A stretch of 64,000 bases of DNA from Hanleya hanleyi (Eukaryota > Mollusca > Polyplacophora > Lepidopleurida > Hanleyidae): the NCBI GenBank assembly GCA_036873755.1, contig JAVTVY010020301.1:1-64000 (forward strand), given 5' to 3'. Positions 22,501 through 59,969 of the stretch are shown here, in pieces (position 1 is the stretch's first letter; each line of letters opens with the position of its first letter). Position numbers and translations under genes: made by a program. Below the pieces are notes generated by a model. The model was not told the origin of the DNA. It ran no database searches and worked only from the letters and a program-made list of their open reading frames with translations.

Positions 22501-25500
22501 GGTGGCTGTAAACAGGCTCTGATAGGCTCGAATGAAATTCGCGCACCCAAAGTTCGGAACCATTAGTGTAGTCAAGTGCTCCTGCATGAGAGCTTCACAA
22601 TGCTACCTCACTCGACCCTATCGGACCATTAGTGGCCCACCTAGATCCCAACACGTTCGCACCGTGTGGACCTATACACACATTGCCATGCAGTATAGGC
22701 CTATGGGCCTACCCAGGTCTCGGTGACTTTTTTCAAAAATATCACCGTTTCGTGCCGGGACACTTCCTATCATGTTTGTCTTGACGAGACTAAGAAAACA
22801 AATCCAAACAACCATACCGCAAATGTCTAGAAGTAGGTTTCCCACTGGGCAAACATTGGTCCTATACCCCTAGTATGGGACTATATGGGTCTCCCTGAAC
22901 TTTTTCCAAAAATTTCAACGATTCGCTCCGCGACACTCCCTATCATGTTTGTCTTGACGAGACTAAGAAAACGAGACCCCACAACCTATACCGCAAATGT
23001 CGAGAAGTAGGTTTCCCAGAATGGTCCTATACCCCCCATACCCCATATAGGCATTTTCCCGTAATTTAGGATAAAGTCCGTGTTCCGTTTTTTTTTAGGA
23101 AAATTTTTACATACACCCACCCTGGAACTAGGGGGAGATAACTCTATTGATAGGCACTGCCCGCTAAGCCCGGCGACCTATATACCCCCATACCCCATAT
23201 AGGCATTTTCCTGGATTTTTCGATAAAGTCCGTGTTCCGTTTTTTTTTCAGGAAATATTTTACATGCACCCACCCATGACTGGATGCCCCTTCACATAGG
23301 CTTCACATTGATACCTCATACAACTCCATCGGCCCATTAGGGGCTCCCCTAGGTCCCAAAACGTCTATTTCCATACCCTTGGTCCACCGCGCATGCGCAG
23401 AATGGTGACAACGCCCGAGCCGCTAGTCCAGTCAGATGCCCCTTCACGAATGCTTCACATGGATACCTCATATGACCCCATTGGACCATTAGGGGCTTCC
23501 TAGCTCCAAAACGTCTAGTTCATACCCTTTGGCCACCGCGCATGCGCAAAATGACACTAGTTCAATCCCACACCCAGCCCATCAGATGCCCCTGGACGAA
23601 TGCTTCACTTTGATATCTCACTCGACCCCATCGGTCCACTAGGGACCCACCTCGATCCCAAAACGTCTATTTAGGTATAGAGTGTATAGATGACGCTACC
23701 ATCGGAAGTGACGTCATTTTCACATCCGGGTGAAAGTTACCCCCATTTAGCCTTTCCCTACTACTATGGTCACCTGAGACGAAATCTATGAGGTCTGAAG
23801 CGTATTTACACGATAACAGGAACTTCGAACCAATATAGAATGAATACAAACGAATGATCAATGAATTTTAGTATCTTGCGAATGCTGTTTAACGAAATTA
23901 CGAACGAAGATGTTTCCAGGGAATTATGAAATTCAATTACTATGTATCAATACCGAACTCTTTGCTAGGATCTTGTCTTGGCGTTATTGTCAGACCAACA
24001 TAAGATACTCCTATCGAGCCACCCCTTTATGAACTCGAGTTAATATTTTACGACCAGAGTTTACAATTAAGCCGCGACTTATGCAAGGAATTTATGCAAG
24101 GAATAAATAGCATACCTCCAATGAACCAGCCGAGGGAGAAACAAGAGATTGAACCAAGCCACCAGCCAACATAAGGTATTTCCTTCGGTTCTCTTTCGCA
24201 CTGTGCTTTCTTGTAGCGATTCCTTATTTCGACCAATAGTCTGATGACGAAAGCGAGTAGTGCGAAACTTCCGCTGACGATCAGGTATATAGGAATGTAT
24301 CTCTCTGCCGGACAGTCATTATTGTAAATAGAACCTGTGAATATGGAATGGTAGATGATATAACCAACTAAAAGCATGTCGGAACTGTGGTGGTTAATAC
24401 TTAAATCAATACACATAGAGACAGACATTATGGAGTAATCATTAATATTACATGCCCCCATTGTTGTTATCAAAGAAGTCAGCTGAAACACTTAACATTA
24501 TTTATAGAGAAGTTTGGTAATTCTTGAAAGGTTTGATAGTATTTTCTTGCGAAACCACTCTGCAAAAGTTTCTCTGATATGTTGATCCCTCGTGTTTTTT
24601 TCTACAAGGTCTAGCCTTTACTGCTGGGTGAAATGTGTATACCCTATGTGCATTTTCTATGTCACAACATTGTAGAATCTGGCTAGACCATAATTTACCA
24701 TCCAATGCTTGAAAATGCTTTTGTAAAGGGCATGTTTATAGTATTCGATCATTCGTATTCGGGAGGAGCAGGGACCATATGACAGTACCTAATAAGCAAG
24801 CGGTATTCAATGCCGAACAAACAATCAGTGAAAATGTCCGACTGCGACACATGCAAACTGTTCACAAATGCGCGACTATTATCGGCAATGAATATCGCTA
24901 TGGGCGACAACTGACTGTTTTATTATGCCCCCCACCCCCCGAGGGGGGCATATAGCGATCGCTTTGTCCGTCCGTCTGTCCGTCCGTCCGTCGGGGCGTC
25001 CGTCTGTCCGTCCGAGTTTCTTATCCGCGCGATATCGCGGTTAATATTTGATGGACAGGATTGAAACTTGCATGGAATGTGCCCAGTACCTCGTAGTTGT
25101 GCAGCGTAGAGTTTTTTTTCCGAGTTCCGGTATAATTTTCAAGAGTTATGGCCCTTTTCTGAAATCTCTACGAATTGGACTTGTCCGAGCTGGATCTTGG
25201 TTAATATTGTATGGACAAGTATGAAATTTGCACGATATGTGGTCAGTGCCCCACAGTTGTGCAGCGTAAAGTTTCTTCGCGTTTCGCTTATAGTTTCAAG
25301 AGTTATGGCCCTTTGTTCTTGAAATATCCATGAATTGGGACTTGTCCGGGCTGGATCTCGGTTAATATTGTATGGACAATTATGAAATTTGCAGGATATG
25401 TGGTCAGTGCCCTGTAGTTGTGCAGCGTGAAGTTTTTCCACGTTTCGCGTATATTTTCAAGAGTTATGGCCCTTTTTTCTTCAAATCTTTGTGAATCGGG

Positions 25501-31500: not shown

Positions 31501-34500
31501 GGCATGTATGGGAATAATCCTGTATGTGCATGTATGGGAAAAACAATTTTCCATATATTACCAATACGTAGTCGTTTTATATGGCAAATCTATACATTTA
31601 CTAGACGGTATGGATTCTACCATACATGCAGCAAGGCATGTATGGGAGTTATCTGGGTATGTCTTTTTATGGGCATGTATGGGAAAAGCAATTTTTCGGT
31701 ACATTGCCCAAACGTGGTCTTTTAAATGGACATTGACCCAGACATGTATGGAGATTACCACACATGCAGGGAAGTATGAGAATATTCAAACACGCTATCA
31801 CTGTTATATTATATATGCTGAAGTTGTACCAGCTATGATCTGGGTCAGATAAATGGTGCCTGTAAGCCATCGGCTGCACATTTCTGTCCGCTACTTCACA
31901 TATTTGCTTAACAATAGTCCCATGAGTCAGAATAATCATGTACGCTACAATCAATATTAGGCTTAATAATTAACTGGCAGCTGGCTTATAGTTCTGGTAT
32001 ATTGATTATTTTTCATTATGTTTATCAATTACGATGAAGCTGTGACAATCTCAATCCTAAGTCCACCTCGCGACATCTGTGTACCGGAGGCCTCTGCAGT
32101 TTGAGACATTTGATATTATTAATTCGTCTTCTGAAGGTTAATTATATATTTCAAAATGTATCCATAACCATTACAAATTCAATTATCTGTCAATGGAGTA
32201 TTGGAAGTTTACGACATCTTCAAAATAAAATAGTATATGTAATTCCTATTACTATTGTATTTTATTATACATTTGTGACGCACACTGGTATTATTTCCAG
32301 CGCGTTAAAGTAATTAGCATCACAAAGTTTTCTAAATATTTAGTCACACTAAAAGATAAATGAATGGCTGATGTTAGTATTCTGTTCGTATATGACTCCT
32401 CCATATTTCATTTAATACTTTTATAAGGCACAATCCATTGTTGGCCGGTCCAGGTTCATACAAATTCCAGTGCATCAAAGAATAAAGCTTTTTTACATTG
32501 GCTTATCATGAAATTTGTAAGACCATTCAATGACAGAGTTTCCGTAAAGGTCGCTTGTCATATGCAGCTCACTCATATTTCCTAACTTGAATGAAACAAC
32601 TTGATTTGGCGTCAGAGAAAAGTCATGTTGTCTTGCTGTGGTTCACCGAGTCTAACATTTGAATAACATTTTGAAAATGAAAAATAAATGTGAAAATGTA
32701 TTGTGATTATGGAGGAGTAAATTCTACATGGACGACGACTGCCTAGCGAATGTCAGATCTGACACTTGTACTAGCGAGCTTCTGATAAATACTCACCGTT
32801 CATAGCCTGATTACATGTATATGTGGGCAGTGCATTCTCTTCTTTGTCCTGAAATATAGACACCACATAAATGTCACTGTAAATCATAGCCATCTAATTT
32901 AGCTCAATCTCTATGTATACCGCTACGAATTAGTTCATCTGTTCAAATTCCAGAGGAATTACTCCCTGGTTGACGGTACACATCACTGATTAGCCTGTTC
33001 GAAATCGGTTTGAAGCCATTCTAACTGGCCTCAAAATGACAAGCAGAAGTATTATCTCTAACAGTGGAAGTAGTATACAAAGGCTAAATTGGCGTAATAG
33101 CGCCTCACTGCGCATGCGCAGAACCTTGTGTGACGTCATAAGTGTGTTTGTGCGCATGCGTGATGTGTGGGAGGTGGGTACAAGATGGCCGCGAGTGTGA
33201 GTGAGTGCAAGATGTGGGAGGTGGGTACAAGATGGCCGCGAGTGTCATGTGTGGGAGGTGGGTACAAGATGGCCGCGAGTGTGATCGCCAGTGTCATGTG
33301 TGGGAGGTGGGTACAAGATGGCCGCCAGTGTGAGTGCAAGATGTGGGAGGTGGGTACAAGATGGCCGCGAGTGTCATGATGTGGGAGGTGGGTACAAGAT
33401 GGCCGCCAGTGTGAGTGAGATGTGGGAGGTGGGTACAAGATGGCCGCCAGTGTGAGTGAGATGTGGGAGGTGGGTACAAGATGGCCGCGAGTGTTATTTG
33501 GTGGGAGGTGGGTACAAGATGGCCGCCAGTGTGAGTGGAAGATGTGGGAGGTGGGTACAAGATGGCCGCGAGTGTTATTTGGTGGGAGGTGGGTACAAGA
33601 TGGCCGCCAGTGAGTGCAAGATGTGGGAGGTGGGTACAAGATGGCCGCCAGTGTGAGTGGAAGATGTGGGAGGTGGGTACAAGATGGCCGCCAGTGTCAG
33701 TGAGATGTGGGAGGTGGGTACAAGATGGCCGCGAGTAGTAAAATGTATAAAAGGAGTCGATTTTTAGGGAAAGGGGTGTATTCAATCTGACTTACCTGAC
33801 CTGACCTGTCTCCCTGCCTGCCTGCCTGCCTGCATCCCTGCCTTGCTTGCCTGCCTGCATTCTGCCTGTATGGAATGCATGTACTGACTTGGTTCTGGTT
33901 TTTTCCATCACGGTTGTGCGCAGGTGTATGACGTCACTTCCGGTCTGCGTGAATCGGGTGTGACCTGGGACTATGGGATGCATGTACTGACTTGGTTCTG
34001 GGTATTTGTCATCACGGGGAGGTCACGTGATCAGTTCAAGGTCATATCCATTTTTTTCCATCACGGTTGTGCGCAGATGTATGACGTCACTTCCGGTCTG
34101 CGTGAATCGGGCGTGACCTGGGACTATGGGATGCATGTACTCACTTGGTTCTGGGTATTTGTCATCACGGGGAGGTCACTTGATCAGTTCAAGGTCATAT
34201 CCATTTTTTATCGATATGTCAACCCACACCCAGTCCATTAGATGCTCCTTCACCTCAGCTTCACTTTGATACCTCACTCGTCCCCATTAGACCATTAGGG
34301 GCTCCCCTAGCTCCAAAAAAGGCTATTTTCATAGCCTTCGGCCTTCGCGCATGCGCAGAATCACCCTAATTCAAGCCCACACCCAGTCCTATCAGATGCT
34401 CCTTCACGGCACCTTCACTTTGATACCTCACTCGACCCGATTGGACCATTAGGGACGCCTCTAACCCCAAAAAGGCTATTTTCACACCCTTCGGCCGCTG

Positions 34501-36570
34501 CGCATGCGCAGAAGGCCGATAGTTCAATCCCATACCCACCCCATTAGATGCTCCGTCACTTTACCTTCAATTTGATACCTCACTCGACCCCATTCGTCCA
34601 TTTTAAAAATTTTTTTTTTTTGGCTATCTCCTACCTCCAAAAACGTCTATTTTCATACCTTTCGGCTACCGCGCATGCGCAAAATGCCCATAGTTCAATC
34701 CATACCCAACCCATTACATGCTATTTATAGGCAAGTGGGCTGAAGTGGGAGGTGGGTACAAGATGGCCGCGAGTGTCATGATGTGGGAGGTGGGTACAAG
34801 ATGGCCGCCAGTGTGAGTGAAAGATGTGGGAGGTGGGTACAAGATGGCCGCCAAGTGTCAGTGAGTGTAAGATGTGGGAGGTGGGACAACATGGCCGCCA
34901 GTGTCAGTGAGTGAGTGAGTGAGTGCAAGCTGTGGGAGGTGGGTACAACATGGCCGCCAGTGTCAGTTAGTGCAACAATAGGCTTGCCCACAGTGTTTTT
35001 TTGCTGTGTTACTTAAGCATAAAAATTTCCTATTTTTTCCGATAAATCCGTTTCAATTTTCACGGAATTATGATAACACTGTAATCCATAGTCTACACGT
35101 ATTTGTTTAGCCAAGAAAATCAATTTTATTTCGAATGTACCTGGTGTTTTCATTCTACCGTACACGAACTTTATGGTGCATAATTTCTTCGCCCTTGCAG
35201 CTACACCGGATGTTACTCCAGACGTCTATCAATGTTTTGACAATATATACACTGCATATTAGAAAATATGTTGAAACCACAAGATAAAGACAAAGAAGGC
35301 CCACTGTATAGTGCTGTGTTACCATCGCCCAAGCATTAAAATTTCCTAGTTTTATTTCGAATCATCAGATTTTAGTGCATAATATTGCTGAAATAATGCC
35401 AACAGAAAACTCAGAGTCAATTTAAATATTTATTTGTATTGAGCAAATTACAAGAATTTCGAAGAGAAAAGAGCCGAAATAATGTCTGTCTGTCCTGAAA
35501 ATCAGCTGATCAGCAATAAATCGACATCTCCGTGACCTTCAAGGAGATTTTGACATTAGGTTTTACCCGCTTTTATCACAAATCATTATAAAGAAATTGT
35601 CACACCCGGTGAACTCCTGAAACCCACATCCTACCTGAGAGTTTGGTAAGATATTCCATTCATTCGTTACCGTGGAGTAGAATTTCATCCATCAGTTTTC
35701 ACTGTTGTGGTGCCAAACACAAAAATTGACAAATTATACGGACTGCCACGATAAGCGAATGTATGCAACAAAATAGCGTTCCGTACTGCACATGTCCGAT
35801 AAAATCCCTCCAGTCGTTACAGAATGTTGATTCCACAAAACCTGTTCGGTGGCCTACATCATCGTTCAATCGCTGATCATAAAGGCTGCGTTCAGCTCAC
35901 CAGAACTGTCTACACTTCGAAATCTGTGAAAGAATATCAATTTTCACGTTTCCTGTCTGATATCAGTCACACAAATTGATGCGTCCGCTGGAACACAGCA
36001 CACTCCCTCGATTATAGTCTACGTGTTACATGCAGGCGATGCATGATGCAGATCACATTATTCATCTCAGCGGACACCGAAAGGAACAAAGTTCCGTTAT
36101 AAACTGCGACAGAGAATGTTCCCCAGCTCAGAAAACAACACAATGATCAGTGAAATCGTCCTTCGTATGCAGGACGCTAACAAAACGCTAACAAAATGGC
36201 TACTGAAGACCAAAATTTGCCCGGATAATCGCGTCGTTCAAACCACAGCGCCACCTATACGCTTTGGTGCAAGGGAGACAACTCGGACTAGACCAATTCG
36301 AAGATCATGTCCGCTATATTTGGCCTGTATGGGTATAGGGGTGGTCGGGTTTTTTTTTATGGCTTTTACTATGAGCTATGAGGTTGATCATGTAGAATAC
36401 GATGGAAAAAACTATCAAAGTACCGCGTAGGCTTGTATATAGATCCATATAGACCCATATACACTCATATACTGTATAAATCCATACGGGTGGACATGTT
36501 GGAGTCTAGGTGGAGCACTAGTGGCCCGATGGGGTAGAGTGAGGTCTTATTTTAAAAGCTCTCGAGGAAA

Positions 36571-36601
<31 letters not shown>

Positions 36602-39600
36602 AAAAATCAAAAAAATCGGCGAGTAGTAGACGAAGGGAAAATTGGAAAGTATTGACCATGCCCCAGAATACTTCATATGCATATCACGGCCTTAAGGCCT
36701 ATGTAAGATGTAATCTACTTCACAGTTTAGTAGTATAAAAAGCGCAATTCACCTTGACCCTTCCAAAGAAATAAAATCGGCTCTATTTTACAGGAGTATA
36801 TACGCAGGTGACGTGGGTTGTGACGTCACTTCCGGGTTTTCACTAAACACTACCTCCAAACATACAAGAGTTCCAATGTTCAACCGCCGGGGTGTTTTCC
36901 CGCCCCAGCGCCCCGCAGCGCGTGCGCGCGCGCGCGTCATCTCGCGTCATCCCCGGCAGTGCGCGCGCGCGGACGCGGGTCAAAAGGTCAAAGGGTCACC
37001 TCCAGGTCAGACGGTCCAATGTCCAATGAGACAATGTTGCGGCATCGCTATAGTGAGAGCTTGAGCACAAAAAAAAAGGGGGGGATTCTAGATGAACCTG
37101 GGAAAGATGGGCAGTTCCATGTGGACCAATCAGCGGTCGAGAAAAAGAGCCAATCAGCGGTCGAGAAAAAGAGCCAATCAGCGGTCGAGAAAAAAGAACC
37201 AATCAGCGGTCGAACAATCAGCCAATCGAATTGGGGTATTCACGGTGTGCTTTCGCTGACGTCCGCGCCTACATCTGGGTTCTTGTACACGCGGGTAATG
37301 TTTTTCTGGACATGGATGGGTTACCTTTGGCTCCATTCTAGGCCACTGATGGGCTAATACGGTGTTCAAAGCCACTTTCATGCATTATGCTCATAGAACT
37401 TATACAACATAATCTATACGTGTTGGACGAGTCTCTTCACTCACCGTATACACGTACCTCAATGAAATGCCCGCTCCAAACCTAGACCAAAGAAACACGT
37501 ACTTGGTCTGTAGGCTGATTTCATTATTCTCTATTTTTACTATGGTCTTTCTTTGCATTCTAACCTTGTTGAGGTTACCTAGCACTGACCAGTCATAATC
37601 GACGTGTTGGACGAGTCTCTTCACTCACCACGTATACACGTACCTCAATGAAATACCCGCTCCAAACCTAGACCAAAAACACGTACTTGGTCACCAGCGG
37701 GCTGATTTCATTGGCTCTCTATTTTTACTATAGTGCTCTTGCATTCTAAACTTGATGGGTTACATTTTTGGTCCCATCCTACACCACTGATTTCAGTTTG
37801 ACTGAATCCTCCACATTAGGCATTAATGCATCAGGAATAAAACTTGCACAAGACAGGGTTTTTTTGGTGAGATCATTTTTTTTATTCAGTGAACAACAAC
37901 AACGTGAGCAACCAGGCGAAAACTGAAGCCCAGAACAAGGGGCTTGTCATTAACTGAAGCCCAGAACAAAGGGCTTGTCATTAACTGAAGCCCAGAACAA
38001 GGGGCTTGTCATTAACTTAAGCCCAGAACGGGGCTTGTACATTGAAATGATTCAAGCCCAGAACGGGGCTTGTACATTGAAATGATGGGCGGCCCAGTCA
38101 TAGACGAGTACATCGCGGTCCTCGGCCTGGGGGCACTCGTCAAACATCTGTACGATAGTAGATAAGGGTCTTCCCCGGCATCGATGGTACAGGTAAAACA
38201 AGCAATATTGTCCGCACACGCCACTGGTCAGACTTTGCAACGTTTGACTGTTCCAACACCACGTCTCTGTGCCTTGATCCATGAAGTCTGTTAAATCGGG
38301 ATGGAGGGTGGCAGGCCGTACGGGTCAAAGTATTCGCCCTGCTGTTCTGTCAAGTACACGGCCACCCAGTGTTCACCGGGTCGATCCATCGGGTCCGTGT
38401 TGAGAACGTAAGCAGCAGGATACACACGGTCTAATGGAAACACATCTCGGGCGAACACCCCTTGAAAAACCCTACGTGTCTCTGGGTCATTCTCCAGCAC
38501 GGTGGTTATCTGGTCTGTATCCATGTTAGGTGGAGAAGTCACACAGGACGTTGCGCGCCTTGTCCACTTGAATGATGTTGTCAAACTCGGCGTAGCAGAT
38601 CAAAAAATTCGCCTTGATGGCCACTAACGTAGAGGGTCATGTAGCGGACTATAAGATTGTCATCCAAGACGCAGTCCTGTATGTCCGAAAAGTGAAACCG
38701 AATCCAGCCGTTCAATTGGGACACATGAAAGCCTTGGAAACAAAACCAGCCCAGTACCCTATCCGACGTGTACAAACCAAAGTGTTCTCTGTGCCTGTTG
38801 GAAATATGGGCGCCAACAAATAAAACCTGTTCCTGGGGGAACTACCCAAGCGATTGATCCTGGCCTGTGTAGAAAATACCAGTTTCAGCGGAGCCTACCC
38901 AGAGAATCCGTTTGACTTTAAACATTTCGGCATCAATTTTGTGGCCCTGCATGTGGATGGACAACAGGTGCCAGCCACGGCCTTAACCCCGAACTTTGGG
39001 CGGAGAATTTCATTCGAGCCTATCAGAGCCTGTTAACAGCCACCGGTCAAATCAACCAGGACGAAGGGAATATGATCAGTCGGGAGGACTACGCGAACGG
39101 ATACACGTTGTTCTGTTTCGATCTGCCCCCACCTTAGAGAACGACCATCAGCTGGCCCTGGCCAAGCAAGGCAACTTACGGTTGGAAATCCACTTTGCAC
39201 GAGCCCTGGCGACCACCGTCAATGTGATCTGCTACGCCGAGTTTGACAACATCATTCAAGTGGACAAGGCGCGCAACGTCCTGTGTGACTTCTCCACCTA
39301 AAATGGATACAGACCAGATAACCACCGTGCTGGAGAATGACCCAGAGACACGTAGGGTCTTTCAAGGGGTGTTCGCCCGAGATGTGTTTCCATTAGACCG
39401 TATGTATCCTGCTGCTTACGTTCTCAACACGGACCCGATGGATCGACCCGGTGAACACTGGGTGGCCGTGTACTTGACAGAACAGCAGGGGGAATACTTT
39501 GACCCGTACGGTCTGCCACCCCTCCATCCCGATTTAACAGACTTCATGGATCAAGGCACAGAGACGTGGTGTTGGAACAGTCAAACGTTGCAAAGCCTGA

Positions 39601-41133
39601 CCAGTGGCGTGTGCGGACAATATTGCTTGTTTTACCTGTACCATCGATGCCGGGGAAGACCCTTATCTACCATCGTACAGATGTTTGACGAGTACCCCCA
39701 GGCCGAGGACCGCGATGTACTCGTCTATGACTGGGCCGCCCATCATTTCAATGTACAAGCCCCGTTCTGGGCTTGAATTATTTCAATGTACATACGCCCG
39801 CTGTTCTGGGCTTCAATGTACAAGCCCCTTGTTCTGGGCTTCAGTTAATGACAAGCCCCTTGTTCTGGGCTTCAGTTTTCACGTGGTTGTTCTCACGTTG
39901 TTGTTGTTCACTGAATAAAAAAAAAAAAAATGAGATCTCACCAAAAAACCCTGTCTTGTGTGTTTTATTCCTGATGCATTAATGCCCAATGTGGAGATTC
40001 AGTCAAACTGAAATCAGTGGTGTAGGATGGGACCAAAATGTAACCCATCAAGTTTAGAATGCAAGAGCACTATAGTAAAAATAGAGAGCCAATGAAATCA
40101 GCCTACAGACCAAGTACGTGTTTTTGGTCTAGGTTTGGAGCGGCATTTCATTGAGGTACGTGTATACGGTGAGTGAAGAGACTCGTCCAACACGTATAGA
40201 TTATGTTGATGACTATAAGTTCTAGGTAACCCATCAAGGTTAGAATGCAAGAGCACTATAGTAAAAATAGAGAGCCAATGAAATCAGCCTACAGACCAAG
40301 TACGTGTTTTGGTCTAGGTTTGGAGCGGGCATTTCATTGAGGTACGTGTATACGGTGAGTGAAGAGACTCGTCCAACACGTATAGATTATGACTATAAGT
40401 TCTATTAGCCAATCAGTGGCCTAGAATGGAGCCAAAGGTAACCCATCCATGTCCAGAAAAACATTACCCGTGTACAAGAACCCAGATGTAGGCGCGGACG
40501 TCAGCGAAAGCACACCGTGAATACCCCAATTCGATTGGCTGATTGTTCGACCGCTGATTGGTTCTTTTTCTCGACCGCTGATTGGCTCTTTTTCTCGACC
40601 GCTGATTGGTCCAAATGGAACTGCCCATCTTTCCCAGGTTCATCTAGAACCCCCCCCCCTTTTTTTGTGCTCAAGCTCTCACTATAGCGATGCCGCAACA
40701 TTGTCTCATTGGACATTGGACCGTCTGACCTGGAGGTGACCCTTTGACCTTTTGACCCGCGTCCGCGCGCGCACTGCCGGGGATGACGCGAGATGACGCG
40801 CGCGCGCGCACGCGCTGCGGGGCGCTGGGGCGGGAAAACACCCCGGCGGTTGAACATTGCAACTCTTGTATGTTTGGAGGTAGTGTTTAGTGAAACCCCG
40901 GAAGTGACGTTACAACCCACGTCACCTGCGTATATACTCCTGTAAAATAGAGCCGATTTTATTTCTTTGGAAGGGACAAGGTGAATTGCGCTTTTTATAC
41001 TACTAAACTGTGATGTAGATTACATCTTACATAGGCCTTAAGGCCGTGATATGCCTATGAAGTATTCTGGGGCATGGTCAATACTTTCCACTTTTCCCTT
41101 CGTCTACTACTCGCCGATTTTTTTGATTTTTTT

Positions 41134-41164
<31 letters not shown>

Positions 41165-44100
41165 CCTCGAGAGCTTTAAAATAAGACCTCACTCTACCCC
41201 ATCGGGCCACTAGTGCTCCACCTAGACTCCAACATGTCCACCCGTATGGATTTATACAGTATATGAGTGTATATGGGTCTATATGGATCTATATACAAGC
41301 CTACGCGGTACTTTGATAGTTTTTTCCATCGTATTCTACATGATCAACCTCATAGCTCATAGTAAAAGCCATAAAAAAAACCCGACCACCCCTATACCCA
41401 TACAGGCCAAATATAGCGGACATGATCTTCGAATTGGTCTAGTCCGAGTTGTCTCCCTTGCACCAAAGCGTATAGGTGGCGCTGTGGTTTGAACGACGCG
41501 ATTATCCGGGCAAATTTTGGTCTTCAGTAGCCATTTTGTTAGCGTTTTGTTAGCGTCCTGCATACGAAGGACGATTTCACTGATCATTGTGTTGTTTTCT
41601 GAGCTGGGGAACATTCTCTGTCGCAGTTTATAACGGAACTTTGTTCCTTTCGGTGTCCGCTGAGATGAATAATGTGATCTGCATCATGCATCGCCTGCAT
41701 GTAACACGTAGACTATAATCGAGGGAGTGTGCTGTGTTCCAGCGGACGCATCAATTTGTGTGATATCAGACAGGAAACGTGAAAATTGATATTCTTTCAC
41801 AGATTTCGAAGTGTAGACAGTTCTGGTGAGCTGAACGCAGCCTTTATGATCGGCGATTGAACGATGATGTAGGCCACCGAACAGGTTTTGTGGAATCAAC
41901 ATTCTGTAACGACTGGAGGGATTTTATCGGACATGTGCAGTACGGAACGCTATTTTGTTGCATACATTCGCTTATCGTGGCAGTCCGTATAATTTGTCAA
42001 TTTTTGTGTTTGGCACCACAACAGTGAAAGCTGATGGATGAAATTCTACTCCACGGAACGGTAACGAATGAATGGAATATCTTACCAAACTCTCAGGTAG
42101 GATGTGGGTTTCAGGAGTTCACCGGGTGTGACAATTTCTTTATAATGATTTGTGATAAAAGCGGGTAAAACCTAATGTCAAAATCTCCTTGAAGGTCACG
42201 GAGATGTCGATTTATTGCTGATCAGCTGATTTCCAGGACAGACAGACATTATTTCGGCTCTTTTCTCTTCGAAATTCTTGTAATTTGCTCAATACAAATA
42301 AATATTTAAATTGACTCTGAGTTTTCTGTTGGCATTATTTCAGCAATATTATGCACTAAAATCTGATGATTCGAAATAAAACTAGGAAATTTTAATGCTT
42401 GGGCGATGGTAACACAGCACTATACAGTGGGCCTTCTTTGTCTTTATCTTGTGGTTTCAACATATTTTCTAATATGCAGTGTATATATTGTCAAAACATT
42501 GATAGACGTCTGGAGTAACATCCGGTGTAGCTGCAAGGGCGAAGAAATTATGCACCATAAAGTTCGTGTACGGTAGAATGAAAACACCAGGTACATTCGA
42601 AATAAAATTGATTTTCTTGGCTAAACAAATACGTGTAGACTATGGATTACAGTGTTATCATAATTCCGTGAAAATTGAAACGGATTTATCGGAAAAAATA
42701 GGAAATTTTTATGCTTAAGTAACACAGCAAAAAAACACTGTGGGCAAGCCTATTGTTGCACTAACTGACACTGGCGGCCATGTTGTACCCACCTCCCACA
42801 GCTTGCACTCACTCACTCACTCACTGACACTGGCGGCCATGTTGTCCCACCTCCCACATCTTACACTCACTGACACTTGGCGGCCATCTTGTACCCACCT
42901 CCCACATCTTTCACTCACACTGGCGGCCATCTTGTACCCACCTCCCACATCATGACACTCGCGGCCATCTTGTACCCACCTCCCACTTCAGCCCACTTGC
43001 CTATAAATAGCATGTAATGGGTTGGGTATGGATTGAACTATGGGCATTTTGCGCATGCGCGGTAGCCGAAAGGTATGAAAATAGACGTTTTTGGAGGTAG
43101 GAGATAGCCAAAAAAAAAAAATTTTTAAAATGGACGAATGGGGTCGAGTGAGGTATCAAATTGAAGGTAAAGTGACGGAGCATCTAATGGGGTGGGTATG
43201 GGATTGAACTATCGGCCTTCTGCGCATGCGCAGCGGCCGAAGGGTGTGAAAATAGCCTTTTTGGGGTTAGAGGCGTCCCTAATGGTCCAATCGGGTCGAG
43301 TGAGGTATCAAAGTGAAGGTGCCGTGAAGGAGCATCTGATAGGACTGGGTGTGGGCTTGAATTAGGGTGATTCTGCGCATGCGCGAAGGCCGAAGGCTAT
43401 GAAAATAGCCTTTTTTGGAGCTAGGGGAGCCCCTAATGGTCTAATGGGGACGAGTGAGGTATCAAAGTGAAGCTGAGGTGAATGAGCATCTAATGGACTG
43501 GGTGTGGGTTGACATATCGATAAAAAATGGATATGACCTTGAACTGATCACGTGACCTCCCCGTGATGACAAATACCCAGAACCAAGTGAGTACATGCAT
43601 CCCATAGTCCCAGGTCACGCCCGATTCACGCAGACCGGAAGTGACGTCATACACCTGCGCACAACCGTGATGGAAAAAATGGATATGACCTTGAACTGAT
43701 CACGTGACCTCCCCGTGATGACAAATACCCAGAACCAAGTCAGTACATGCATCCCATAGTCCCAGGTCACACCCGATTCACGCAGACCGGAAGTGACGTC
43801 ATACACCTGCGCACAACCGTGATGGAAAAAACCCAGAACCAAGTCAGTACATGCATTCCATACAGGCAGAATGCAGGCAGGCAAGCAAGGCAGGGATGCA
43901 GGCAGGCAGGCAGGCAGGGAGACAGGTCAGGTCAGGTAAGTCAGATTGAATACACCCCTTTCCCTAAAAATCGACTCCTTTTATACATTTTACTACTCGC
44001 GGCCATCTTGTACCCACCTCCCACATCTCACTGACACTGGCGGCCATCTTGTACCCACCTCCCACATCTTCCACTCACACTGGCGGCCATCTTGTACCCA

Positions 44101-44976
44101 CCTCCCACATCTTGCACTCACTGGCGGCCATCTTGTACCCACCTCCCACCAAATAACACTCGCGGCCATCTTGTACCCACCTCCCACATCTTCCACTCAC
44201 ACTGGCGGCCATCTTGTACCCACCTCCCACCAAATAACACTCGCGGCCATCTTGTACCCACCTCCCACATCTCACTCACACTCGCGGCCATCTTGTACCC
44301 ACCTCCCACATCTCACTCACACTCGCGGCCATCTTGTACCCACCTCCCACATCTCACTCACACTGGCGGCCATCTTGTACCCACCTCCCACATGTCACTC
44401 ACACTGGCGGCCATCTTGTACCCACCTCCCACATCTCACTCACACTCGCGGCCATCTTGTACCCACCTCCCACACATGACACTCGCGGCCATCTTGTACC
44501 CACCTCCCACATCTTGCACTCACTCACACTCGCGGCCATCTTGTACCCACCTCCCACACATGACACTGGCGGCCATCTTGTACCCACCTCCCACACATCA
44601 CGCATGCGCACAAACACACTTATGACGTCACACAAGGTTCTGCGCATGCGCAGTGAGGCGCTATTACGCCAATTTAGCCTTTGTATACTACTAGTGGAAC
44701 AGTATTCAAGAACCTGTTTAAAGAATAAATGTTTTAGAATATATTTAGCGTCCATGGGTTGATGGCAACTCTTTGAATTGCAAGTAGTAATAGCAAGCGT
44801 GCTATAGACCGCACATGCAGCTATCGAGCTTCCTGGGGGGAAAGGTTGGTAACCTCGATCACCTTCACAGGAAAATCATTTCTACGAGCAATGAGGAGAG
44901 ATAAAATGACTTTGTTTCATTATAAAATAGTTCAACTTACCATCACCGTTGAGCTTACATCCCCAGTTGTGGTCAT
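7384..44976 (-). CDS. TMEM272-like membrane protein gene (six exons, 224 aa)
   Basis: A spliced host gene whose introns hold both Polintons. Coding exons on the minus strand are 44941-44976, 32797-32848, 27793-27915, 27030-27089, 24116-24334 and 7384-7568. All junctions follow GT...AG, phases agree at every join, and the sum is 675 nt (224 residues plus stop). The protein has an N-terminal [11 protein letters not shown] motif, then a segment with ARNACTLCC, a hydrophobic segment around [12 protein letters not shown], the family hallmark [13 protein letters not shown], and further hydrophobic segments including FCLASS-type helices near FIGGNVWVY and [11 protein letters not shown]. These match the TMEM272-like family, which is expanded in molluscs and has no well-defined function. 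A plasma-membrane or endomembrane location is inferred. Exon 1 is the least certain, because it is only 12 codons long and rests on ATG, phase and splice site. Confidence 0.8.
7865..9330 (+). repeat. P1 left terminal inverted repeat region
   Basis: It matches, in inverted orientation, pieces of 21610-23765. Shared blocks, from the end inward, are the terminus, an ETS-CRE site (TGACGTCACTTCC at ~7917), units of an NRF1-site repeat, a GC-rich block (~9050-9115) and CCAAT boxes (~9265-9330). The two sides differ by rearrangements and insertions, so this is a mosaic TIR rather than one clean repeat. Confidence 0.8.
8100..9010 (+). repeat. 152-bp tandem repeat with an NRF1-type site in each unit
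   Basis: The palindrome GCGCATGCGC starts at 8221, 8373, 8525, 8678 and 8825, a spacing of 152, 152, 153 and 147 bp. Units share GGTCGAGTGAGGTAT, a GATGGGCTGGGTGTGGGGTT block and TATGGAAATAGACGTTTTGG. TGCGCATGCGCA is the NRF1 consensus. Related units occur in the P1 right end and in both P2 arms. Confidence 0.85.
9265..9340 (+). promoter_or_regulatory. CCAAT-box cluster upstream of P1 ORF X1
   Basis: Three CCAAT boxes, the first as GGACCAATCAGCGG, which fits the NF-Y consensus, followed by CCAATGAGCG and CCAATGGACG. They lie 100-170 bp upstream of the TATA box at 9434. The same block is found inverted at ~21610-21690 and in P2 and the 63-kb copy. Confidence 0.6.
9434..9440 (+). promoter_or_regulatory. 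TATA box of ORF X1
   Basis: TATAAAA 53 bp before the X1 ATG, downstream of the CCAAT cluster. Confidence 0.6.
9487..9771 (+). CDS. P1 ORF X1, small accessory protein of unknown function
   Basis: A 94-residue protein with no family I recognise. It is mostly polar and probably helical, with an acidic middle ([11 protein letters not shown]) and a basic C-terminal tail ([11 protein letters not shown]). The start is the first ATG after a well-placed TATA box and CCAAT cluster, making it the first gene inward from the left TIR. It may have lost a C-terminal extension, because the related-looking genes downstream are longer. The position suggests an early or regulatory gene; that is inference. Confidence 0.55.
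   Translation: MTEIQPYVTRLLQHATVVNSLTGYRAVVRSMFADGDDNEGRRQILNEFTEAVFDRVHSMERCAITHHYWTMTAILDARAMDHERSHRNQRRWLA
9826..9833 (+). promoter_or_regulatory. TATA box of ORF X2
   Basis: TATAAATA, in CTATAAATACGAG, 58 bp before the X2 ATG. The same 13-mer is found before X3. Confidence 0.65.
9884..10408 (+). pseudogene. P1 ORF X2, paralogue of X3, one internal stop
   Basis: A frame of 175 codons from ATG 9884, interrupted once by an in-frame TAG at 10007-10009. It aligns with X3 over nearly its whole length. Shared blocks are LHVY-DKV near the N-terminus, WTKFKR--SGELDG in the middle, YV-HGPFF after that, and RSSDELEW near the C-terminus. The strand-like N-terminal part followed by a W-K-F-K helix is reminiscent of PC4-type ssDNA-binding proteins, but this is only a weak resemblance. 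Its own TATA box suggests monocistronic expression. It is an accessory gene of the Polinton, function unknown. Confidence 0.6.
10404..10411 (+). promoter_or_regulatory. TATA box of ORF X3
   Basis: TATAAATA in CTATAAATACGAG, 45 bp before the X3 ATG. It overlaps the last codons of X2. Confidence 0.65.
10449..10706 (+). CDS. P1 ORF X3, paralogue of X2, probably C-terminally truncated
   Basis: An 85-residue open frame from ATG 10449. It contains [30 protein letters not shown] and YIRRGPFF, all with counterparts in X2. Past the stop at 10704-10706, another frame up to a TAG at 10917-10919 still resembles the X2 C-terminus (RSSDELDW), so the original gene was longer and has been frameshifted. The motif I-LS-E-W-K-K resembles the W-containing strand-helix junction of PC4 coactivators (weak, inference). 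Unknown function. Confidence 0.6.
   Translation: MAEHIILAQLSLSLEVFLHVYADKVDIMEEVGDICDADHTQPCPAHIRLSRESWTKFKRVLSGELDGDLIHLCHDVYIRRGPFFA
10904..10911 (+). promoter_or_regulatory. TATA box of the P1 integrase
   Basis: TATAAATA 43 bp before ATG 10947. It is the fourth gene in a row with its own TATA box 43-58 bp before the start codon. Confidence 0.6.
10970..13032 (+). mobile_element. Penelope-like retroelement copy 2, inside the P1 integrase
   Basis: The longest of the three copies. It contains most of the RT gene and the shared 3' region ending GACGCTTGTAAT. The last ~72 bp occur twice in tandem (about 12889-12960 and 12961-13032). The left boundary is inferred from where the integrase reading stops (about 10968). 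Confidence 0.8.
10973..12533 (+). pseudogene. Reverse transcriptase of Penelope-like copy 2
   Basis: The reading starts [15 protein letters not shown]. The first frame (10973-11899) holds the N-terminal region, [27 protein letters not shown] and motif [12 protein letters not shown] frameshift near 11875-11895 leads to the second frame (to 12219) with [10 protein letters not shown] and RYIDDLL. A second frameshift near 12200 leads to the final block, which ends at the stop at 12531-12533. No GIY-YIG nuclease domain is visible. This is the best template for judging how much the other copies lost. Confidence 0.8.
13278..13442 (-). mobile_element. 165-bp short insertion in the integrase (SINE/MITE-like)
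   Basis: It interrupts the integrase between the first and second catalytic Asp and is flanked by ACAA on both sides. Its right ~45 bp is found again, inverted, at ~26811-26852 in the TMEM272-like intron (core ACATATAAGGGAAGTGGGAA), so it belongs to a dispersed repeat family. The family is not recognised. Confidence 0.55.
14299..16089 (+). pseudogene. P1 Thr/Ser/Pro-rich single-pass membrane protein, split by a transposon
   Basis: The start [13 protein letters not shown] is followed by a hydrophobic helix (about residues 20-36, [19 protein letters not shown]) and a long Thr/Ser/Pro-rich stalk. The stalk holds a repeat ([16 protein letters not shown]) whose second copy ([16 protein letters not shown]) now lies 1.2 kb away, because a hAT-like element (14661-15855) inserted between them. 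The frame after the insertion runs to 16089 and overlaps the ATPase start at 15984, which suggests a downstream frame change or a real overlap. The architecture suggests an O-glycosylated type II or type III membrane protein. Its role is unknown; envelope or entry roles cannot be claimed from the sequence. Confidence 0.6.
14661..15855 (+). mobile_element. hAT-like non-autonomous DNA transposon (1.2 kb)
   Basis: It has perfect 15-bp terminal inverted repeats, CAAGGGCGTAGACAA at 14661 and its complement ending at 15855. The flanks CCCACCAC and ACCACCAT match at 6 of 8 positions, compatible with a worn 8-bp hAT-type duplication, but the ACC-rich surroundings make this ambiguous. It contains no transposase and has a pyrimidine-rich tract at 15725-15795. 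Confidence 0.7.
15984..16592 (+). CDS. A32-like genome-packaging ATPase
   Basis: A 202-residue ATPase of the HerA/FtsK-A32 superfamily, expected to power packaging of the element's DNA into capsids. The Walker A motif GPTGSGKT lies at residues ~15-22, and Walker B LVVLDDLM at ~76-83. A sensor-like YVVQNLF follows at ~111-117. The frame is fully open and the length is normal for Polinton ATPases. The start MDPRWQHPF is chosen because the P-loop follows at the usual distance. It is one of the few P1 genes that look undamaged. Confidence 0.92.
   Translation: MDPRWQHPFTCVIAGPTGSGKTHFVRKLLQHADSMITPPIARLVLCYGESQAAYAAMPHITFVEGLPNLADMEPDTLVVLDDLMAETDARVTQLFTKGSHHRQLSIIYVVQNLFSKNKEHPNISLNAHYLVVFKNPRDTTQVLHLARQMYPGCTPFALEAFKDATTPQHGYMLFDLKQTTPDHLRLRTGIFPGANHHVYLQK
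16593..16748. other. Spacer between ATPase and small basic protein
   Basis: About 155 bp without a coding region; no clear TATA box. It is the only sizeable gap in the structural gene block. Confidence 0.4.
16749..17093 (+). CDS. Small basic capsid-associated protein (adintovirus-type)
   Basis: About 114 residues. A basic N-terminal half contains [19 protein letters not shown], followed by a KKKVLQKGG junction and a hydrophobic Gly/Ala/Leu-rich tail ([23 protein letters not shown]). This layout, basic core then LQKGGFLG and an amphipathic tail, is the well-known small ORF beside the capsid genes in Polintons and adintoviruses, thought to be a virion core or membrane-active protein. The start could be 16749 or 16752 (adjacent ATGs). 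The next gene overlaps by ATGA. Confidence 0.8.
   Translation: MMSARVRKHAPTLRVLKTAPPELVRTIVRGADTDLVRCLCEIGYNLLKGNVPLTPAQKIKLAKHKTGLRTLVHKRVPQTQKKKVLQKGGFLGAILAPLAASVLGPVLGGLFGRQ
17090..17923 (+). pseudogene. Pro-rich structural protein of Polintons, one in-frame stop
   Basis: The reading starts at ATG 17090, overlapping the previous stop, and is broken by an in-frame TAA at 17276-17278. The same frame then continues to 17923. The N-terminal part has [10 protein letters not shown] and LDGEMQQIL, the middle has a poly-Pro stretch, and the C-terminal part has [23 protein letters not shown] and [16 protein letters not shown], followed by a basic [11 protein letters not shown] tail. The same order of blocks is conserved in a structural protein next to the capsid genes of many animal Polintons. 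Its exact function is not established. The downstream ATG at 17279 could allow reinitiation. Confidence 0.7.
17957..18745 (+). pseudogene. Minor capsid protein (penton-like), one in-frame stop
   Basis: The start [17 protein letters not shown] is typical of Polinton minor capsid proteins. An in-frame TGA at 18065-18067 interrupts after 36 codons. The frame then stays open to the stop at 18743-18745, with [15 protein letters not shown] and the end block [19 protein letters not shown]. In an active element it would be the single-jelly-roll vertex protein. The total would be 262 codons plus stop. The next gene starts in a TAATG overlap. Confidence 0.85.
18745..19149 (+). CDS. Capsid-associated protein with amphipathic segment (pVI-like position)
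   Basis: A 134-residue open frame overlapping the minor capsid stop (TAATG). It starts [19 protein letters not shown], then [20 protein letters not shown], a hydrophobic/amphipathic middle, a [19 protein letters not shown] helix and a very basic C-terminus. This QRGHGLG protein is a conserved neighbour of the capsid genes in Polintons and adintoviruses. Comparison with adenovirus pVI is plausible but is inference. No breaks are seen. Confidence 0.75.
   Translation: MKVPYEYDARNYMDYYAQQAGGGLPVFSGARMQRGHGLGNILGSIVKTFLPLVTRGVMAIAKQAVRSGLQVAGDVLGGTAPKEALKRLAKEAGGVLVAKAQRTVGNKRPAPPRPRTSRRPTQRRRTSKTQDIFS
19153..20409 (+). CDS. mcp: Major capsid protein (double-jelly-roll type), C-terminus shortened
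   Basis: A 418-residue open frame 3 bp after the previous gene. Recognisable blocks are [17 protein letters not shown] at the N-terminus, [52 protein letters not shown] and the C-terminal [12 protein letters not shown]. These are hallmarks of the Polinton/adintovirus hexon-like major capsid protein that forms trimers and the icosahedral shell. Comparison with the second copy at 38618-39301 shows a ~35-40-bp deletion just before the stop, so the last ~19 residues are missing. Otherwise the frame is intact. Confidence 0.92.
   Translation: MSLIHTESCPSTNSEFDLWTVPPTQTSAEQGLWVEHLPLSSINATGPIEFTISNADTAYVDLAHTYLYVKAKIVNGDGTRIADQATVGPTNLWLHSMFQQVDIFLSDKLISDSTNTYPYRAYIETLLSHGREAKKSQLTAALFYQDKAEHMGAENDNTGYSKRKALTANGVSVDLMGRLHADMFMHDRYLLNKIPIKIRLIQAPPTFDLVATNVNGHAADYKIVIEDAVLYVRKMKPNPAVQLGHMKALETKPAQYLIRRVQTKVFSVSAGNMSANKENLLLGELPKRLILACVENTSFSGVYPENPFDFKHFGINFVALHVDGQQVPARALTPNFGRANFIRAYQSLFTATGQINQDEGNFISREDYVNGYTLSCFDLTPTLENDHQLAFAKQDNLRLEIHFQRALRSTVNVICYAE
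20436..20898 (+). pseudogene. pro: Adenain-like maturation protease, broken
   Basis: A cysteine protease that would process capsid proteins. Compared with the intact copy at 39303-39776 it has a ~5-bp deletion near 20577 (frameshift just before the catalytic His region) and an in-frame TGA near 20854. The Cys-box region survives as [12 protein letters not shown], with Glu replacing the Gly seen in the intact copy. It lies 26 bp after the major capsid stop and is the last gene before the right TIR region. Confidence 0.85.
20865..21015 (+). repeat. Hairpin array after the protease gene
   Basis: Four copies of a short inverted repeat, AAGCCCCGTTCTGGGCTT and variants, in a context of TTCAATGTACA. 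The first hairpin includes the protease stop codon. An AATAAA follows at ~21041. The same array follows the protease in both P2 arms and in the 63.9-kb copy, so it is a conserved 3' structure. Confidence 0.8.
21016..21600. other. P1 right-end non-coding region
   Basis: No gene. It contains a block conserved in all four Polinton ends (CACCACTG/CAGTGGTGTAGGATGGG and TTTGGTCTAGGTTTGGAGC) and several CCCGGATGTA-type ETS-like motifs. Confidence 0.5.
22341..22365. repeat. 10-bp fold-back scar
   Basis: CGGTTGGAAA and its complement TTTCCAACCG are separated by GTAGA, exactly where the captured capsid fragment begins. A polymerase folding back on its own product would leave such a mark. Confidence 0.7.
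22356..22560 (-). pseudogene. Captured major capsid gene fragment in the right TIR
   Basis: About 205 bp matching the C-terminal part of the major capsid gene (20155-20365) on the opposite strand. It reads [24 protein letters not shown] and [23 protein letters not shown]. It carries no start and cannot encode a complete protein. Its presence outside the coding region shows template switching or recombination within this Polinton family. Confidence 0.85.
22725..23035. repeat. ~150-bp direct repeat (two units)
   Basis: Two units (about 22725-22880 and 22895-23035) share CACTTCCTATCATGTTTGTC-type sequence, CTTGACGAGACTAAGAAAAC and CCGCAAATGTC. They are found only in the right P1 end and are not recognised. 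Confidence 0.7.
23037..23275. repeat. ~95-bp direct repeat (two units) in the P1 right end
   Basis: CATACCCCATATAGGCATTT and ATAAAGTCCGTGTTCCGTTT occur at ~23037-23125 and ~23190-23275. Not recognised. Confidence 0.7.
23772..24115. other. Intron 5 of the TMEM272-like gene, no other gene
   Basis: AT-rich intron sequence between the Polinton insertion site and exon 5. Nothing further was recognised. Confidence 0.5.
24116..24334 (-). CDS. TMEM272-like gene, exon 5
   Basis: The acceptor TATTCACAG precedes GTTCTATTTAC and the donor is GGAG/GTATGC. It encodes the family hallmark [13 protein letters not shown], a transmembrane segment, a basic loop ([14 protein letters not shown]) and the start of the next helix. 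Phase 1 at both ends. Confidence 0.85.
24335..27029. other. Intron 4 of the TMEM272-like gene
   Basis: No other gene. It contains the GTCC microsatellite and tandem repeats (24930-25690), a G-rich homopolymer (26080-26100) and a short relative of the 165-bp integrase insertion (~26811-26852). Confidence 0.55.
24930..25690. repeat. GTCC microsatellite plus ~160-bp tandem repeats
   Basis: A (GTCC)n tract (~24965-25015) is followed by four to five units of ~155-165 bp. Each holds GGTTAATATTGTATGGACAA, GTTGTGCAGCG and CAAGAGTTATGGCCCTT. This is a common layout of dispersed mollusc repeats. The start is a CCCC/GGGG inverted stretch. Confidence 0.8.
27030..27089 (-). CDS. TMEM272-like gene, exon 4
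   Basis: The acceptor CTATTTCAG and donor ATTG/GTAGGTG flank a 60-nt exon encoding [19 protein letters not shown], a hydrophobic helix conserved in the family. Confidence 0.85.
27793..27915 (-). CDS. TMEM272-like gene, exon 3
   Basis: The acceptor ATTATTATAG and donor TCTG/GTGAGT flank a 123-nt exon. It encodes [18 protein letters not shown], the proline/tyrosine motif typical of this family's N-terminus, then a segment with [15 protein letters not shown]. Confidence 0.85.
28502..28570 (+). repeat. Fragment of the Penelope-like 3' region
   Basis: TCTAATTCCGCTCAATTCGG and GGTGCTAGGGGCCGTGTG resemble the 3' UTR shared by the three retroelement copies (TCTAATTCCGCTTAACCCGG, GGGGCTAGGGGCCGTATG). 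A shorter inverted match lies near 30470-30505. Confidence 0.5.
31090..31760. repeat. Degenerate tandem array of CATGTATGGG units
   Basis: About eight imperfect units of 50-110 bp with GGGCATGTATGGGAAAAGCA, CAATTTTCCATACATTACC and CATACAT. Open frames exist here in several phases, but they are by-products of the repeat. Confidence 0.75.
32797..32848 (-). CDS. TMEM272-like gene, exon 2
   Basis: The acceptor CTATATTTCAG and donor AACG/GTGAGT flank a 52-nt exon encoding [17 protein letters not shown]. Its open G joins exon 3 to give the Asp of DPPPSY. Phase and splice sites agree with both neighbours. Confidence 0.75.
33109..33165. promoter_or_regulatory. NRF1 and CRE motifs beside the P2 left terminus
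   Basis: TGCGCATGCGCA (from ~33110), TGACGTCA (~33131) and GTGCGCATGCGTG (~33151) lie within 100 bp of the element end. The same sites occur at 44595-44655 in the right arm. Confidence 0.5.
33167..33735 (+). repeat. YY1-like array, P2 left arm
   Basis: About sixteen units of 30-50 bp, each with GTGGGAGGTGGGTACAAGAT followed by GGCCGCGAGTG or GGCCGCCAGTG. AAGATGGCCGC (complement GCGGCCATCTT) fits the YY1 consensus. The array ends just before a TATA box. Open frames through it on both strands are repeat artefacts. Confidence 0.85.
33746..33754 (+). promoter_or_regulatory. Polymerase-type TATA box, P2 left arm
   Basis: TATAAAAGG followed by AGTCGATTTTTAGGG, the counterpart of the P3 polymerase promoter. 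A CCTGCCTG tract follows (33810-33870), as in P3, but no polymerase coding sequence comes after it. The promoter is orphaned. Confidence 0.65.
33920..34205 (+). repeat. ~155-bp direct repeat with ETS-CRE sites, P2 left arm
   Basis: Two units each carry TATGACGTCACTTCCGGTC, TGGGATGCATGTACT and GTCATCACGGGGAGGTCAC. TGACGTCACTTCCGG is the ETS-CRE composite in reverse orientation. Confidence 0.75.
34210..34735 (-). repeat. NRF1-site tandem repeats, P2 left arm
   Basis: GCGCATGCGC starts at 34347, 34500 and 34671, within ~150-170-bp units related to those at 8100-9010 but inverted. Each unit has CCTCACTCGACCC and TCCTTCAC blocks. Confidence 0.8.
34744..34972 (+). repeat. Second YY1-like array, P2 left arm
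   Basis: Five further units of GTGGGAGGTGGGTACAAGAT-type sequence, some with AACATGGCCGCC in place of AAGATGGCCGC. The mirror copy is at 42770-42990. Confidence 0.8.
34985..36110. other. P2 left arm, unique non-coding stretch
   Basis: AT-rich sequence found only in the two P2 arms (mirror at 41620-42720). No gene recognised. Confidence 0.5.
36116..36430 (+). CDS. Possible small membrane protein, P2 left arm
   Basis: A 104-codon frame starting [18 protein letters not shown], with a basic middle and one hydrophobic segment ([18 protein letters not shown], about residues 67-84). The mirror copy in the right arm (start at 41614) has one T fewer in a T8-9 run and shifts frame inside the hydrophobic segment. 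Part of the frame overlaps sequence that resembles the P1 terminal region near 7930-7970, which speaks against a real gene. Unknown. Confidence 0.3.
   Translation: MFPSSENNTMISEIVLRMQDANKTLTKWLLKTKICPDNRVVQTTAPPIRFGARETTRTRPIRRSCPLYLACMGIGVVGFFFMAFTMSYEVDHVEYDGKNYQSTA
36570..36612 (+). repeat. (AAAT)n microsatellite, P2 left arm
   Basis: Tandem AAAT/AATA units; the mirror copy (ATTT)n is at 41140-41165. Confidence 0.85.
36812..37235 (+). promoter_or_regulatory. ETS-CRE, GC-rich, DR1-like and CCAAT cluster, P2 left arm
   Basis: TGACGTCACTTCCGGG (~36820), a CpG-rich block with alternating GCGCGC (36915-36975), AGGTCAAAGGGTCA (~36986) and four or five CCAATCAGCGG/CCAATC boxes (37125-37230). 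The order matches the P1 right end. Mirror: 40510-40930. Confidence 0.6.
37415..37760. repeat. ~190-bp direct repeat, P2 left arm
   Basis: CGTGTTGGACGAGTCTCTTC and CTCCAAACCTAGACCAAA occur twice (about 37417-37590 and 37604-37760). The mirror pair lies at 40040-40410. P1 and the 63-kb copy have a single unit, so the duplication arose before the palindrome formed. Confidence 0.75.
37925..38090 (-). repeat. Hairpin array after the protease, P2 left arm
   Basis: About five units of AAGCCCAGAACGGGGCTT and variants, alternating with ATTAACTG or ACATTGAAATGA. Counterpart of 39755-39885 and 20865-21015. Confidence 0.8.
38052..38524 (-). pseudogene. pro: Adenain-like protease, P2 left arm (1-bp frameshift)
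   Basis: An inverted copy of 39303-39776. The start [12 protein letters not shown] and the His region GEHWVAVYL are intact. A single missing C near 38307 shifts the frame before the Cys box, which is still readable in the other frame as [12 protein letters not shown]. Confidence 0.88.
38603..39224. other. P2 loop: single-copy centre of the palindrome
   Basis: 622 bp between the two arms. The first ~15 bases (AAAAATTCGCCT) match neither arm nor the capsid gene and may be junction filler. The rest is capsid-gene sequence. Confidence 0.85.
38618..39301 (+). pseudogene. mcp: Major capsid protein, C-terminal half, broken
   Basis: It starts abruptly at about residue 214 of the P1 capsid protein and has no start codon of its own. 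Breaks are a TAA at 38821-38823, a small deletion near 39002 and a frameshift near 39127. The last part continues past CYAE to the natural C-terminus (ending CDFST at 39301), which P1 has lost. It runs from the loop into the right arm. Confidence 0.88.
39303..39776 (+). CDS. pro: Adenain-like maturation protease, intact (157 aa)
   Basis: The only complete protease copy in the window. It belongs to the adenovirus-protease-like cysteine peptidases that mature Polinton capsids. The catalytic His lies in GEHWVAVYL (about residue 52), an acidic residue in GEYFDPYG (~67), a candidate oxyanion Gln in WNSQTLQ, and the catalytic Cys in [12 protein letters not shown] (~110). The start follows the capsid stop by one base, as expected of the ancestral gene pair. 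No promoter of its own is seen. It lies in an element that cannot move alone, yet the frame is undamaged while its mirror copy has a single deletion. Confidence 0.9.
   Translation: MDTDQITTVLENDPETRRVFQGVFARDVFPLDRMYPAAYVLNTDPMDRPGEHWVAVYLTEQQGEYFDPYGLPPLHPDLTDFMDQGTETWCWNSQTLQSLTSGVCGQYCLFYLYHRCRGRPLSTIVQMFDEYPQAEDRDVLVYDWAAHHFNVQAPFWA
39755..39885 (+). repeat. Hairpin array after the protease, P2 right arm
   Basis: Four units of AAGCCCCGTTCTGGGCTT-type inverted repeats; the first contains the stop codon. AATAAA follows near 39914. Confidence 0.8.
40510..40930 (-). promoter_or_regulatory. CCAAT, GC-rich and ETS-CRE cluster, P2 right arm
   Basis: Mirror of 36812-37235. One base change turns the CRE into CGGAAGTGACGTTA here. 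Confidence 0.55.
42770..42990 (-). repeat. Second YY1-like array, P2 right arm
   Basis: Mirror of 34744-34972. Confidence 0.8.
43010..43515 (+). repeat. NRF1-site tandem repeats, P2 right arm
   Basis: Mirror of 34210-34735, with GCGCATGCGC in each of three units. Confidence 0.8.
43977..43985 (-). promoter_or_regulatory. Polymerase-type TATA box, P2 right arm
   Basis: Minus-strand TATAAAAGG, mirror of 33746-33754, likewise without a polymerase gene. Confidence 0.65.
43990..44606 (-). repeat. YY1-like array, P2 right arm
   Basis: About seventeen units of GCGGCCATCTTGTACCCACC; the number and order of variants differ slightly from the left arm, as expected for a tandem array that has changed since the palindrome formed. 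Confidence 0.85.
44941..44976 (-). CDS. TMEM272-like gene, exon 1 (putative)
   Basis: A 36-nt exon, ATG followed by codons for [11 protein letters not shown], ending ATG/GTAAGT. Phase 0 joins exon 2 in frame. The P2 element lies in the intron that follows. With no upstream promoter recognised, this start is a proposal. Confidence 0.5.
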
Positions 44977-59933: not shown

Positions 59934-59969
59934 GTCTACTTCCTCTTCAGGGCTTAGCTCAGATTTCAA

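Follow-up and report, generated by a model that had tools for sequence, protein, structure and literature searches.

The window, the 64,000-nt stretch analysed here (C17771:1–64000 of a 2.48-Gb host assembly in 52,793 contigs), contains an 11.6-kb palindromic Polinton in which two inverted copies of one Polinton right end enclose a short asymmetric loop. The element is flanked by a 6-bp target-site duplication (TSD), and a related site carries a single copy of the same six bases. We put at roughly one in two the probability that the palindrome arose by terminal arm replacement, the left part of a non-autonomous Polinton having been replaced by an inverted right end before integration.

Architecture of the palindromic element

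The arm-loop-arm structure was confirmed with coordinates exact to the base (Table 1). The two inverted arms, each of about 5.5 kb and 95.3% identical over 5601 aligned columns, surround a region of 622 nt (38603–39224, AAAAA filler included), giving a layout of the snapback type, in which an asymmetric loop is enclosed by inverted arms that both derive from one end. As the preliminary description had it, the loop and right arm are colinear with other copies of the family and the left arm is an inverted copy of this right end. The size it gave for the single-copy loop also holds, but the five A residues at its left edge fit neither the arm nor the two family copies compared, so the family loop is the shorter interval listed in the table. 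Both outer tips agree (AGTAGTATAC...) and have in common the sequence AGTAGTATACAAAGGCTAAATTGG; they present the (AGT)2...(ACT)2 motif, as AGTAGT...ACTACT, together with terminal inverted repeats (TIRs), and AGTGGA stands on each side, bearing out the proposed Polinton-type termini and duplication.

Table 1. Features of the palindromic Polinton in window coordinates
Feature	Position	Strand	Evidence or remark
Left target-site duplication AGTGGA	33063–33068	.	Empty site with single copy
Left arm, inverted right end, from terminus to inner breakpoint	33069–38602	-	Arm comparison
Left tip and 41-bp tandem-repeat array, counterpart of the ~0.7-kb TIR of the normal relative	33069–33850	-	Boundary approximate
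Inner part of left arm, 1.7% from right arm at unmasked sites	36642–38602	-	Change point at right-arm 41092
AAAAA junction filler	38603–38607	.	Junction found once in assembly
Single-copy family loop, colinear with right arm; shows homology to a stretch of the capsid-like ORF in the other Polinton of the window	38608–39224	+	
Right arm, the normal Polinton right end	39225–44692	+	Carries ORF 39228–39776
Right tip and 41-bp tandem-repeat array	43995–44692	+	Tip comparison
Right target-site duplication AGTGGA	44693–44698	.	Empty site

The ORF of the right arm has a weak likeness to adenovirus endoprotease, below the Pfam cut-off, and a PDB sequence search with it returned no convincing match (best E 0.23). 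No match to PolB, integrase or ATPase was found in the three element ORFs scanned; the element has in addition six ORFs of at least 150 aa in the tandem-repeat arrays, and broken or short frames. These three ORFs thus provide neither a protein-primed PolB nor an integrase of the element's own, and from its coding content we read the element as a non-autonomous Polinton derivative.

The window holds another Polinton at 7865–23765 (TSD ATGGTC), with an ATPase-like ORF (15879–16592) and a capsid-like ORF (19150–20409); its segment 19771–21355 matches the loop region of the palindrome at 90%. Named homologues of the capsid-like ORF, among 120 listed of 518, occur in the gastropods Littorina and Batillaria and in a sea urchin, which makes an animal host likely, perhaps a mollusc. 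A double jelly-roll domain was detected in one of three homologues scanned (P0012); the domain scan did not find it in ORF 19150–20409 itself, and a PDB sequence search with this ORF gave no match. A 1158-aa DNA polymerase B ORF (PF03175) lies on the reverse strand at 2146–5622, outside both Polintons. Further downstream, a perfect 1617-bp direct tandem duplication (52459–55690) at the edge of a BEL/Pao retrotransposon (ORFs 55092–59972) is either a recent duplication or an assembly duplication.

Insertion scar and empty site

The left flank (32000–33068) has one long second match in the assembly, at C44737:181858–182918 (89%), the other 38 matches listed being short. At C44737 the left flank joins the right flank directly, with a single AGTGGA, and the flank pieces are 86.6–91.8% identical to those of the window. 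C44737 holds the empty site, allelic or paralogous, in the same genome. The single AGTGGA there shows that all 11.6 kb were inserted, with the 6-bp TSD expected of a Polinton. The proposal that a palindromic Polinton was integrated as a unit accordingly stands as far as a chromosomal derivative with two right ends, a TSD and a known empty site; integration of a ready-made palindrome, with an integrase acting in trans, would be one possible route and rearrangement in place another.

The duplication and the empty site make a misjoin very unlikely, and a misjoin of two Polintons was rejected on this evidence. An assembly artefact of any kind, fold-back or misjoin, is highly improbable: the structure is read from assembled contigs, and some of these, C29372 and C11561 among them, break off within or close to Polintons, but the two flanks differ, the matching tips carry the 6-bp TSD, the empty site has one AGTGGA, and the arms are separated by both substitutions and indels.

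Normal relatives and the natural terminal repeat

A normal member of the family was identified at C19765:61832–76758. It is 14.9 kb long, is bounded by the TSD TACACA, has the tips and a TIR of about 0.65–0.75 kb, and is among the 39 other places matching the loop at 99%, which establishes the nucleotide kinship of the palindrome with full Polinton members. Each of 38 other contigs examined (40 matches scored of 4609 candidates) has its right-end segments in a single orientation, as does each of 37 contigs in a further search; the same holds for long right-end matches in 38 of 38 other contigs (40 scored of 9431). Five of the contigs in this last set (C26351, C5261, C12697, C19367 and C39218) have extra repeat matches of 61–75 bp on the opposite strand. 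The one-orientation right ends and the ~0.7-kb TIR of C19765 rule out that the 5.5-kb arms are a natural long TIR. Among 42 loci scanned, of which three are the window itself and most are only 3–5 kb long, no other arms like those of the window were seen; inverted matches of at least 80 bp, partly in tandem repeats, are also present in L021, L041 and L042.

The family is hugely amplified, as judged by a 30-mer from the protease region (window 39600–39629) that occurs exactly at 2162 places, 1068 on the plus and 1094 on the minus strand, the two in the window included. No opposite-strand pair of this 30-mer on one contig appeared among the roughly 100 places listed. Contigs C544 and C742 each have two matches in direct orientation, at spacings of 18.5 and 18.8 kb, and may carry head-to-tail Polintons.

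The junction

The left arm ends in ...GTAGCAGATCA and is followed by AAAAA and then by TTCGCCTTGATGG. The filler fits neither the sequence in which the arm would continue nor the bases preceding 38608 in the two copies compared, the other Polinton of the window (at 19771) and L002, both of which have ordinary upstream sequence before this point. A 31-nt junction pattern, with up to three mismatches allowed, was found at a single place in the assembly. In all 39 other loop matches the alignment begins at query base 8 or 9 (38607/38608; 40 scored of 1447 candidates), so that among scored matches read-through of the junction is limited to the window; on one of the 39 contigs there is another match, of 48 nt. 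By eye, no stretch near 39225 could pair with a 3' end at 38608. The 5-nt filler and this lack of visible priming homology favour end joining.

The single occurrence of the junction rules out a proliferating palindromic family sharing it. The suggestion of a new class of non-autonomous Polinton is therefore premature: the exact junction is present once, and the one further palindrome, described below, is a candidate.

Divergence between the arms

With tandem repeats masked, 21 of 1237 sites differ between the arms in right-arm 39225–41099, against 6 of 2598 further outward (Fisher p 1.4e-6). The change point lies at 41092 and was reached by 0 of 500 shuffles. Inner divergence is 1.7%, about 7-fold that of the outer part; the arms, near identical outward, are not alike throughout. 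Variants were compared with 15 relatives chosen for coverage. Of 57 arm differences in 39225–42760, 32 are private to the left arm (many in bins holding tandem repeats, where the alignment is unsure), eight are private to the right arm and 17 have both variants elsewhere; at four sites the two arms agree with each other and with none of the relatives. Across the inner 1.9 kb, the right arm has 48 mismatches to the left arm and fewer, 24, to L011.

Sister relationship of the arms was assessed by AU tests on loci outside the window, L022 and L027 excepted, with rows covering at least 95% of each segment. Sisters were unrejected for 39225–39790 (p 0.47, 40 rows) and 40420–41110 (p 0.38, 25 rows). 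The result was borderline for 41170–42000 (p 0.049, 15 rows), where the left arm is identical to L044. These tests weaken an early reading of the inner arms as clearly non-sister. Within 42700–44000 both arms carry a tandem-repeat join at 43010 that none of the 38 other contigs showed (40 scored of 9431). What is missing there is the direct join of 42700–43010 to 43010–43996; exclusivity of 42700–43010 itself was rejected, a 35-mer at its end being present in 37 other contigs. From the mosaic divergence, the variant sharing, the AU tests and the shared join, the outer arms probably have a recent template in common; the inner left arm either derives from a different copy or underwent conversion afterwards.

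A second candidate palindrome

An exact 30-mer from the outer arm occurs at 971 places, and among about 100 listed, on about 90 contigs, opposite-strand pairs were found on two contigs, C3996 and C4263. On C3996 the two copies (2511 and 37666) are 35 kb apart and face the other way. On C4263 they are 3 kb apart, and the surrounding locus L064 (C4263:4000–13900) is palindromic over 1–9857 of its 9901 nt at 97.8%, with 33 nt separating the innermost arms and 18 of 27 arm mismatches within 500 nt of the centre. The centre and inner right arm match L021 (98% over 295 nt), which has inverted repeats near by. The right arm appears by eye to reach a 41-bp repeat array resembling the TIR array. Two array patterns sought on C4263 occur once each, unmirrored, so that the palindrome either stops before the array or has a different array on its left side. 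The locus is a candidate for a second right-right Polinton palindrome with a different junction, and may be an assembly fold-back.

Origin of the palindrome

In the arm replacement that we favour, the left part of a linear Polinton DNA would be lost or left uncopied, most likely while the element replicated outside the chromosome by protein priming, with many related copies present. A right end in inverted orientation, for which a second copy served in part as template, would then be joined at 38602/38608 with the AAAAA filler, and the tips now at both ends would let a standard integrase insert the molecule as a unit. This origin is supported by the tips and TSD, the empty site, the unique junction with its filler and the 39 of 39 loop matches starting at the same point; by the normal 14.9-kb member with its short TIR and the one-orientation right ends elsewhere; and by the inner variants found in other copies, the roughly 7-fold inner divergence and the candidate second palindrome with another junction. 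Replacement before integration is our first choice because the tips are intact at both ends and, if the C4263 case holds, because two different loops exist. The second template for the inner arm is putative, sisters being unrejected in two of the AU tests, and the inner divergence could stem from later gene conversion.

The same structure and TSD would also result if a copy were repaired after its integration, and a rearrangement in place is quite possible. A normal Polinton would have inserted with the TSD AGTGGA and later broken in its left part; the left TIR would have invaded a right TIR of its own sister or another copy, and break-induced replication would have proceeded inward until end joining to the capsid-like gene. 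This route requires no special replication intermediate and has ample templates in the 2162 exact 30-mer copies. The near-identical outer and diverged inner mosaic is expected from template switching in repair, and the filler fits end joining, so it accounts for both equally well as arm replacement before integration. The empty site without a Polinton is neutral here. If genuine, the very short loop of C4263 is more suggestive of a fold-back during replication and counts against repair in place.

A snapback from one molecule, in which a nascent strand folds back, copies 5.5 kb and integrates, with the inner differences arising by later gene conversion, is unlikely. The snapback itself was the origin first put forward. 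Its layout, with loop and right arm colinear with other copies and the left arm inverted, is borne out, as are near-identical outer arms sharing the join at 43010, and the AU tests allow sister inner arms. The inner arms are nevertheless 1.7% apart with variants on both sides found in other copies, and the junction has a filler and no priming homology visible by eye; the need for later gene conversion disfavours the plain form. Snapback is itself a particular form of arm replacement, and replacement through template switching or end joining is no less likely than the one-molecule form.

More tentatively, right-right palindromes might in this animal be a recurrent by-product of Polinton replication: mis-copied genomes resembling defective interfering ones, keeping both tips, integrated with the aid of a helper integrase and differing in their junctions (the 622-nt loop here, the 33-nt loop of the C4263 candidate).

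Comparison with known systems

In the prevailing view, Polintons replicate in the manner of adenoviruses, as linear DNA capped by protein, and in adenoviruses, whose linear DNA is protein-primed, defective snapback genomes are formed in which one end is inversely duplicated. AAV is a parvovirus and replicates from hairpin ends. To our knowledge, Polinton replication intermediates have hardly ever been seen. Judged by their titles, the papers listed in literature searches neither described a palindromic Polinton nor dealt with such adenovirus genomes. If integrated as such, the palindrome would be a fossil of a Polinton replication intermediate, and two right tips would suffice for integration. 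Polinton-rich genomes with thousands of copies can be searched for right-right and left-left forms, in which loop sizes and junction types would discriminate replication fold-back from chromosomal repair.

The element shares with Polintons/Mavericks the AGTAGT...ACTACT tips, the 6-bp TSD, capsid-like sequence and kinship with a large colinear family. The passages of PMC8097293 on intact vertebrate Mavericks state the (AGT)2...(ACT)2 tip motif and give TIRs of 46–1447 bp; relative to the elements described there, the palindrome differs in its 5.5-kb inverted repeats and in the absence of PolB, integrase and ATPase from the three ORFs scanned. In Galileo of Drosophila, as outlined in PMC3573991, non-TIR sequence has likewise been recruited in inverted form, lengthening the TIR, although Galileo, unlike a Polinton, is a cut-and-paste transposon of the P superfamily. 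The arm replacement described for Streptomyces in PMC5869714 is similar in that a linear replicon capped by terminal proteins exchanges one of its ends for a copy of the opposite end; the discussion there invokes homologous recombination and break-induced replication, with end joining for other repairs, and concerns a bacterial chromosome rather than an integrated element. A similar layout is found in the natural defective AAV snapback genomes treated in PMC8235507, self-complementary for the right or left moiety and either symmetric or bearing an asymmetric loop; those are packaged genomes, as opposed to copies that an integrase has inserted with a TSD.
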